DNA from: Dolosigranulum savutiense
Lineage (GTDB): Bacteria; Bacillota; Bacilli; Lactobacillales; Carnobacteriaceae_A
Length of the DNA: 64,000 nucleotides
Assembly (NCBI RefSeq): GCF_039830095.1
Contig: NZ_CP142435.1
Coordinates: 1-64,000 of the forward strand
Direction: 5' to 3'
Position numbers and translations under genes: made by a program
Shown here: positions 1,982 through 4,258 of the stretch, piece by piece
Layout of the letters: every line of letters starts with the position of its first letter
How positions within the stretch are numbered: the stretch's first letter is position 1
Notes under the pieces: generated by a model
What the model was told of the DNA's origin: nothing
Seen by the model: only the letters and a program-made list of their open reading frames with translations
Databases searched by the model: none

Positions 1982-3163
1982 TTAAAATAATGTTTGTTCT
2001 CGGTAAGCTGTCACTAATTTTTGTTGGACCACTGGGAATGTATATTGATTGAATTCATCTGGTGCAATCCACTGGCAGTTATCTGGAATATTATCTGATA
2101 TTGCCGTGTTTTTTAAATTAGCCACGATAAGATAGAGGATCCACTTCTGATGGCTGAAGACATGTACGACATCTCCATCAACTTGTGGCCGAATAGTAAG
2201 TGGCAAATCATAGCGTTCTTTCATCATATGCTCAACTTGTTCAGTTGCCTCATCACTTAAGTGCTCAAAAGTGGTCGGTTGCACCTCTTTCCACCCTGAT
2301 GTATCTAAATCCTTCACGTCAATTAACGGATACGTCCACATATTACTCAACAAGCCATCACTCGGCCGCTTTTCTAATAAATATTGTCCATCATTATCTT
2401 GCACAATAATAGCCAAATATGTATATGGAGTAGGTGGTTTATTCTTCGACGTCACTGGATAATATTCCCATGTCTCGTTCACATACGAGCTGTTAAATTC
2501 CTTCAGTGGCGATCGCTCTGGATGATAATTTTTCGGTGTACAAATCGTCGCCCCAATATCCATCAATGCTTGGTTAAAGTCTCCCGGGCGCTTAGGATCG
2601 ATCAGATGTTCTGCAATCGCTTGAAACACTTTGCGGTTTTTAGCTTGCTTCACGTCAAGGTCCACTTCGAACAAGCGGGCAATCACTCGCATCAGATTCC
2701 CATCCACTGCTGGTTCTACTAATCCAAAACAAATCGACCCAATTGCTCCCGCTGTATATGGCCCAATACCACGTAGAGACTTCAGCCCTTTCATATCAGA
2801 TGGGAACACTCCACCGAACTCTTGAACAACTTGTTGTGCGGCCGTATGCATATTACGTGCTCGCGAATAATAGCCTAACCCTTCCCATACTTTCAACAAA
2901 TCATCTTCATAGGCATTTGCCAAAGCATCAACAGTCGGAAAAGCCTCTAAAAATCGCTTATAATAGGGAATAACGGTTTTAACTTGTGTTTGTTGGAGCA
3001 TAATCTCACTAATCCAAATCTTGTACGGATCACGTGTCGCTCGCCACGGTAAATCACGCTTATTCGCATCATACCAGCTTAAGACTGTCTCTCTGAATGC
3101 TTGAATACGTTCTTGATCCCATAGTTCAACCCCGTAGTCGTCCTTTAATTGTTGTTTATCCAC
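1982..3163 (-). CDS. mutY: A/G-specific adenine glycosylase MutY lacking the Fe-S cluster cysteines
   Basis: Base-excision repair enzyme that removes adenine mispaired with 8-oxoguanine. Length (393 residues) is normal for a Gram-positive MutY. Visible are the catalytic Glu53 in SEIMLQQTQ, the helix-hairpin-helix around 127-137 (LRGIGPYTA), the catalytic Asp154 in VDGN, and a C-terminal NUDIX-like 8-oxoG recognition domain from about 245. The usual four cluster cysteines C-x6-C-x2-C-x5-C are reduced to the first: Cys208 is followed by Pro215, Ser218 and Asn224 at the other three positions. Cluster-free MutY proteins are known in a few organisms including lactobacilli, so this is probably a functional variant. 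The start is GTG, directly after the recX stop, with GAAGG upstream inside recX. Confidence 0.93.
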   Translation of the reverse strand: MDKQQLKDDYGVELWDQERIQAFRETVLSWYDANKRDLPWRATRDPYKIWISEIMLQQTQVKTVIPYYKRFLEAFPTVDALANAYEDDLLKVWEGLGYYSRARNMHTAAQQVVQEFGGVFPSDMKGLKSLRGIGPYTAGAIGSICFGLVEPAVDGNLMRVIARLFEVDLDVKQAKNRKVFQAIAEHLIDPKRPGDFNQALMDIGATICTPKNYHPERSPLKEFNSSYVNETWEYYPVTSKNKPPTPYTYLAIIVQDNDGQYLLEKRPSDGLLSNMWTYPLIDVKDLDTSGWKEVQPTTFEHLSDEATEQVEHMMKERYDLPLTIRPQVDGDVVHVFSHQKWILYLIVANLKNTAISDNIPDNCQWIAPDEFNQYTFPVVQQKLVTAYREQTLF

Positions 3164-4228
3164 TTAATCATCAACCTTCTCTGTCATAAATCGCTCGATC
3201 AACTCCCGCTTAAACCCTTTTGAGTACAAGAATGCTTTCGTTTTTTGGTGAAGTTCATACCCCTGTGTCTTACGTGAATACCGGCGCAGCGCCTTCTCAC
3301 CTTGCTTGACTAATGCTTCATATTCTTCATCCTCAGCCACTTCTGGCTCCATTTCGTCAAACGCCATACTAATAACTTCATTGGTATAGCCTTTTTTGAA
3401 TAAATAATTATTCAACTTCTGCATGCGTTGTCGCTCAGATGTTTTATTGCGTTTTTTCATCCGCTTCTTAATAAGGGCACAAGCATTCTCCACTTGCTCT
3501 GATACGTCATATTCTTCCTGAGCAATCTGAATCAACGGATCATCGACACCGCGCTCAACTAAATCTTGGGCAATAACTCTTGGGCCTTTTCTATTCACTC
3601 GTGCTGCTGTTCGTACAAAACTTTTCGCATATTCGAGGTCATTAATCAAATTTTGTTCCTTCAACTTATCAACAACGGCATCTGCTTGAGCCAAGAATTC
3701 ATGCTCTGCTAAATCATCTCTAATTTCCTGCTCTGTTCGCATCTTATAACTCAAATAATTTAGCGCTCTTGTATAAGCCTTCGCGAAGTTATCTTCAACT
3801 TCCAGTTGCTTCTGAAACTCTTCGGAAATCACCATTCCTTTTCGGAGCAAATGTTTAACTAATAAAGCTTCCGCTATCGGAAAAGCATACTCCCCGCCCA
3901 AATAAATATTATAACGTCCTTTTCGTTTTTGAGCACTAATTTTTGTAATTGTCCGCTTATAATTTGGGTCATCCTTAGCCGGTATCTGACTCCCTCGTCC
4001 AGACTGCTTCAAATTTTGGACATACGCTTCTGCATCACGCGCATTAATTTCTTGAGCTGAATATTGACTTAATGGCTCTGTTGACTTTTCAATTTGAGGA
4101 ATCGGTGTTTGAGCGTTACTCAGCTCATCAATTTCTTCAGTATCTGTCATTTCCTCTGAATCTGCCTTACGAGCTGCATTGGGTTCTACTTGAATTAAAT
4201 CATCTAAGTTAAATCCACCACTATCCAT
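3164..4228 (-). CDS. recX: Recombination regulator RecX with long acidic N-terminal extension
   Basis: RecX binds and modulates RecA filaments. The RecX three-helix repeats occupy roughly residue 90 to the end (KISAQKRKGRYNIYL, then LSYKMRTEQEIRDDL and repeats, ending GFKRELIERF), the normal 265-residue RecX core. The first 90 or so residues are an acidic, polar, probably disordered extension that typical RecX proteins lack. Three closely spaced starts exist (TTG 4237, ATG 4234, ATG 4228); AGGAG at 4238-4242 is best spaced for ATG 4228. The gene lies between hflX and mutY, and its stop codon abuts the mutY start, implying coupled translation. Confidence 0.88.
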   Translation of the reverse strand: MDSGGFNLDDLIQVEPNAARKADSEEMTDTEEIDELSNAQTPIPQIEKSTEPLSQYSAQEINARDAEAYVQNLKQSGRGSQIPAKDDPNYKRTITKISAQKRKGRYNIYLGGEYAFPIAEALLVKHLLRKGMVISEEFQKQLEVEDNFAKAYTRALNYLSYKMRTEQEIRDDLAEHEFLAQADAVVDKLKEQNLINDLEYAKSFVRTAARVNRKGPRVIAQDLVERGVDDPLIQIAQEEYDVSEQVENACALIKKRMKKRNKTSERQRMQKLNNYLFKKGYTNEVISMAFDEMEPEVAEDEEYEALVKQGEKALRRYSRKTQGYELHQKTKAFLYSKGFKRELIERFMTEKVDD

Positions 4229-4258
4229 TATCATCAACTCCTCTCTAACAGAATATGC

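Follow-up and report, generated by a model that had tools for sequence, protein, structure and literature searches.

The mutY gene of the window (the whole stretch of 64,000 nucleotides that was analysed) very probably encodes an ordinary working MutY of lactic acid bacteria, whose ancestors lost the [4Fe-4S] cluster and in which the former cluster loop has been kept as a protein-only structure; we infer that the enzyme is active and free of iron. It is a further member of an inherited, already reported kind and not a new case. Judged from the sequences compared, the clusterless state of the window's family is inherited, since it is common to the whole sampled family and to most of the MutYs read from the order.

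The mutY gene and its neighbourhood

The original prediction had placed the gene at 1982-3163; the frame is confirmed, and the strand, which had not been given, is minus.

3163..1982 (1982..3163), minus strand: mutY, A/G-specific adenine DNA glycosylase, 393 aa with a GTG start; HhH-GPD (4.2e-21), NUDIX_4 (9.9e-18), G. stearothermophilus MutY 4yoq (E 6.3e-85)
3164..4237, minus strand: recX, intact upstream neighbour, the frame end of which abuts the mutY start codon
2150..2158, minus strand: Phe336-Ser337-His338, FSH loop of the C-terminal NUDIX-like domain; F336 in 116/119 and H338 in 118/119 clusterless MutYs

The window protein has the MutY hallmark, an HhH-GPD domain with the catalytic Glu and Asp, as well as a C-terminal NUDIX-like domain with the FSH loop at 336-338, and HhH-GPD, HHH (24.7 bits, cut-off 24) and NUDIX_4 all score above the Pfam thresholds. 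The role of the FSH loop we take to be 8-oxoG recognition. The closest solved relatives by sequence are the G. stearothermophilus MutY structures, 4yoq among them. The source genome is a single contig with a completeness of 98.6%. The neighbouring genes had been described as normal, and the frames read with Pfam (RecX, an HflX-like GTPase, IPP transferase, an AP-endonuclease-2 family protein, a DUF402 protein and an ArAE_1 protein) are indeed intact.

Loss of the cluster ligands

The C-X6-C-X2-C-X5-C ligands of the [4Fe-4S] cluster, a typical but not universal trait of MutY, are absent from the window protein, in which the four positions read C-P-S-N. The positions were placed by alignment with 71 cluster-bearing named MutYs (among the matches listed) and with G. 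stearothermophilus MutY 4yoq.

2492..2542, minus strand: relic cluster loop, residues 208-224 (CTPKNYHPERSPLKEFN), from alignments with named MutYs and the order and class survey
2540-2542, minus strand: Cys208, the retained first ligand, from the alignment
2519-2521, minus strand: Pro215 at the place of the second cysteine, from the alignment
2510-2512, minus strand: Ser218 at the place of the third cysteine, from the alignment
2492-2494, minus strand: Asn224 at the place of the fourth cysteine, from the alignment

These alignments bear out the earlier description of a single retained cluster cysteine (Cys208) with Pro215, Ser218 and Asn224 at the other places, and of an intact Glu53, Asp154 and HhH motif; the FSH loop is intact as well. 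Alignment with cluster-free and cluster-bearing MutYs, proposed with the original prediction, places the window protein with the clusterless set. The loss of the ligands is real, beyond chance or a sequencing slip, because cysteines 2-4 are absent in 27 of the 27 sampled family genomes, its own included, and no stops lie within the matched frames. With its ligands gone, its remainder intact and its gene inherited within the order, the window MutY is a clusterless MutY of Lactobacillales, and the remark in the original prediction that cluster-free MutYs are already known applies to it as a member of that known class.

Distribution in the family, the order and the class

Whole-genome searches matched MutY in all 27 family genomes, its own included, the matched frames again being free of stops, and the first cysteine is kept in 24 of them. 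One of the genomes, G014, also has a short frame of 89 aa, some 1.6 kb away from mutY, that is similar to the C-terminal 79 residues of MutY (G014:C1:383042-383269). Among the sampled genomes of the order, 285 of 295 gave a MutY search match, some of these matches being the Nth homologue only. The 144 order MutYs that were read were picked across nine family codes, not at random, and from 139 class genomes outside the order 15 MutYs were read, picked across the score range; 119 of the 144 proved clusterless, and none of the 15. By family code, the cluster was lost in f1 (27/27), f2 (14/18), f4 (25/25), f5 (40/40) and f9 (13/13), and all four cysteines are present (CCCC) in f3 (7/7), f6 (1/1), f7 (4/4) and f8 (9/9), as well as in the 15 MutYs from outside the order. 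Four f2 genomes (G042, G055, G116 and G130) have CCCC in both MutY and Nth, and the other f2 members read have lost both.

A scan of named genomes, from which the best 80 loci were kept, gave 71 CCCC and nine clusterless loci among those listed; in this listing, which may leave out records of the window's genome, the best locus has an identity of 53% or less. Eight of the nine clusterless loci listed belong to Lactobacillales by title, namely three Streptococcus, Aerococcus agrisoli, a Facklamia, Lentilactobacillus parafarraginis, a Lactobacillus MAG and Fructobacillus pseudoficulneus, and the CCCC loci of Lactobacillales come from Enterococcus (six loci) and Vagococcus acidifermentans (one locus). 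All 64 listed loci that lie outside the order by title, Bacillaceae included, are CCCC when one locus of doubtful title is set aside. This ninth clusterless locus, titled Sedimentibacter sp. SX930, is a clusterless MutY of the Lactobacillales type, and the record is probably misnamed.

Evolutionary history of the loss

A MutY tree was built from 142 of the 159 rows after masking of the loop, and was rooted with 15 Bacilli; it is a single-gene quick tree. On the rooted tree CCCC is the outer state, and the clusterless label needs at least four changes, two of which are forced by well-supported branches; the placement of one long-branched CCCC row (G031) is unsure. A single loss for the whole order was considered and is disfavoured by an AU test (p 0.012; 80 of the 159 rows, quick tree, loop masked). 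Because this test speaks against placing all clusterless rows together, the MutY cluster was probably lost at least twice in the order, or lost and regained. The clusterless f2 MutYs may form one clade, a constraint to that effect giving p 0.60 with 9 of the 14 rows tested.

Catalytic and relay residues

The residues on which catalysis depends were compared between the 119 clusterless and 40 cluster-bearing MutYs.

3005..3007, minus strand: catalytic Glu53; E in 119/119 clusterless and 40/40 cluster-bearing MutYs
2702..2704, minus strand: catalytic Asp154; D in 119/119 clusterless and 40/40 cluster-bearing MutYs
2687..2698, minus strand: relay residues Asn156 and Arg159, equivalents of human MUTYH Asn238 and Arg241; N and R in 119/119 and 40/40
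2501..2503, minus strand: Lys221, loop position in the SPVKxFN motif; K/R in 112/119 clusterless and 8/40 cluster-bearing MutYs (4/25 inside the order)

Together with Tyr136, the catalytic and relay residues (E53, D154, N156 and R159) are retained in every one of the 119 clusterless proteins. According to PMC12000561, a relay in human MUTYH links the backbone carbonyl of the first ligand cysteine to the catalytic Asp236 by way of Arg241 and Asn238; by alignment, the equivalents in the window protein are residue 208, Arg159, Asn156 and Asp154, the equivalence of Asn156 and Arg159 having been traced via N146 and R149 of G. stearothermophilus MutY. The same source reports that the ligand-cysteine changes C290W and C306W in human MUTYH abolish activity and metal, and because of this some compensation for the lost ligands would seem to be needed in the window protein. 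Residue 208 is C in 47, E in 38, M in 30, S in two and Q in two of the 119 clusterless MutYs, a variability expected if the backbone alone matters at this position. Clusterless MutYs carry a basic residue at 221 far more often than cluster-bearing ones, an enrichment that counts only as an association because related sequences are not independent.

We propose that the former cluster loop, as in the predicted model, folds without metal as a protein-only structure, and that the Arg159-Asn156 relay would still position the catalytic Asp154. The side chain at 208 may change, given that the Arg of human MUTYH donates to a backbone carbonyl, that of the first ligand cysteine. Lys221 probably takes over a contact to the DNA backbone, and A opposite 8-oxoG should be removed by such an enzyme free of iron.

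Predicted structure

Modelling of the loop at residues 205-226, proposed with the original prediction, was run, and the blocks covering residues 201-230 are confident. The AlphaFold model of the window MutY has a mean pLDDT of 93.1, with the loop blocks at 93, 92 and 97, values to be read knowing that AlphaFold is blind to the absent cluster and can build apo-like loops confidently. The alignment behind the model held 47 sequences, 37 of them cluster-bearing. The model superimposes on G. stearothermophilus MutY 8dvy over 351 residues (Z 40.7, rmsd 1.6) and on MutYX 8uuc over 199 residues (Z 22.8).

Iron-sulfur capacity and the cause of the loss

The source genome holds two SufB/D-family matches and three radical-SAM protein matches, as well as an Fpg-family gene. 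Since SufB/D and radical-SAM genes remain, the cell, as far as its gene content tells, is not iron-sulfur independent, and the loss affects particular repair enzymes, not iron-sulfur metabolism at large. Absence of Suf was considered as a cause of the loss and rejected: SufB/D is present in 268 of the 295 order genomes, and a genome of family code f8 (G135, 99% complete) with no SufB/D match still has CCCC in both MutY and Nth. A peroxide-rich, manganese-centred physiology, suggested by the S. pneumoniae paper cited below, is perhaps the reason.

Alternative explanations

Three of the four ligands are gone and the remainder of the protein is intact, a pattern also compatible with a separate, recent loss under selection for iron independence in this lineage, which is how the original prediction had understood it. 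That account finds no support, as the state is family-wide and inherited: the loss is shared by 27/27 family genomes, the SufB/D and radical-SAM genes are still in the genome, and G015, a family member that gave no SufB/D match, shows the C-P-S-N of most of its family. We consider a separate selected loss very unlikely. Binding of another metal by the loop, with Cys208 as one ligand, is slightly less likely again. In its favour, Cys208 is kept in 47 of the 119 clusterless MutYs (C-P-S-N itself, likewise in 47 of the 119, being the commonest clusterless state), but 71 of the 119 have none of the four cysteines, and position 208 is so often Glu or Met (38 and 30 of 119, respectively). Loops with at least two Cys or His residues occur in 25 of the 119, two of them with three, and some clusterless MutYs may thus allow a weak metal contact; a replacement metal site is not seen in MutY because none of the 119 clusterless loops holds four or more Cys or His residues.

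Least likely of all is a decaying or misread gene. A lost cofactor site can mark decay, but here the 393-aa frame is intact in a genome assembled as one contig, relatives carry the same type of loop, and the catalytic residues are invariant in the 119 clusterless MutYs. The original prediction had likewise argued against decay, and rightly so: the catalytic, wedge and HhH residues are conserved, those of the FSH loop nearly so, and the gene is free of stops in 27/27 family genomes. The preferred reading therefore remains that of a working enzyme with an inherited, metal-free loop.

A companion change in endonuclease III

The Nth (endonuclease III) of the source genome has also lost its cluster motif.

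G000:C1:171933-172574 (L002:1357-2001), minus strand: Nth of the source genome; C-X6-C-X2-C-X5-C lost, loop C-PARD-H-D-H-DE-C

The C-X4-H-X-H-X2-C loop is found in all 25 Nth read from the family, in 13 of 17 from f2 and in 4 of 40 from f5, counts based on one Nth per genome, the fetched copy most like that of the source genome, which leans towards its loop where two copies exist. An exact DNA pattern for this loop matched one of 398 phylum genomes, the source genome itself, which was the only known carrier tried, in a set with only three genomes of the order. Further Nth-like genes occur in some family members (L029:897-1430 in G016:C7, and on G016:C39 and G019:C35); in the only one read, that of L029, the loop differs, having three cysteines and, at the third position, Phe.

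Among the 132 genomes with both genes read, both motifs are lost in 90, both are CCCC in 23, MutY is lost with Nth CCCC in 18, and MutY is CCCC with Nth lost in one. In this last genome (G234), a draft, the Nth frame is broken and the loop therefore unreadable, and with it set aside there are no genomes with loss in Nth only. This distribution, in which related genomes are counted many times, suggests that MutY lost its cluster before Nth, because, G234 aside, every genome whose Nth is without the motif also has a MutY without it. The three loop states require ten changes on the Nth tree, few of them well supported.

Given the number and spacing of its Cys and His residues, two of each, the Nth loop could bind zinc. 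According to PMC9266487, the HhH glycosylase Tag has a zinc snap. A literature search on partly accessible texts, with most subscription journals outside its coverage, found no cluster-free endonuclease III and no case of zinc in endonuclease III. We tentatively propose, giving the scenario somewhat less than an even chance, that both HhH glycosylases lost their clusters stepwise in part of the order, MutY first, and that the window's family and some relatives remodelled the Nth loop into C-X4-H-X-H-X2-C, with a putative zinc at the [4Fe-4S] site, while the MutY loop became metal-free. If true, a DNA glycosylase would have exchanged its iron-sulfur cluster for zinc in nature. The Nth with its putative zinc site is the more interesting lead, and as an example of cofactor exchange it would be cleaner than MutY.

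Relation to known MutY proteins

By itself the window MutY is a minor finding, a MutY without cluster ligands being already in print for a member of the order. The survey bears on the open question of the role of the cluster in MutY: with a relay conserved in 119/119 and a basic residue at 221 in 112/119, the clusterless proteins are natural variants that could be used to test which roles of the cluster protein alone can take over.

The clusterless MutYs of S. pneumoniae and L. brevis resemble the window protein in having no cluster ligands and belong to the same order, and E. histolytica lies outside it. A FEBS J paper of 2016 (10.1111/febs.13608) reportedly deals with the clusterless MutYs of L. 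brevis and E. histolytica. The state of the loop differs within the order, the window protein keeping the first cysteine (C-P-S-N), whereas Streptococcus mostly has E-P-S-S and lactobacilli M-x-S-N/D. In PMC5214746, MutY (SPD_1086) and Nth of S. pneumoniae are described as lacking clusters, PMC11078426 cites the 2016 FEBS J paper on clusterless MutYs, and PMC11981726 reports ExoDinG proteins with too few cysteines from Bacillales and Lactobacillales.

G. stearothermophilus MutY (4yoq, 8dvy and 9bs2) shares with the window protein a nearly full-length fold, the catalytic Glu and Asp, the FSH loop and the relay Asn and Arg, the relay residues having been deliberately altered in structures 8dvy and 9bs2; it differs in having four cysteines and a [4Fe-4S] cluster where the window protein has one cysteine. 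The MutYX of Eggerthella sp. YY7918 (8uuc, 'clusterless MutYX') shares a clusterless catalytic domain with the window MutY. In contrast, MutYX, according to PMC12585504 (presumably the protein of 8uuc, from the shared name), carries a C-terminal winged helix-turn-helix, in place of which the window MutY has the NUDIX-like domain (NUDIX_4).
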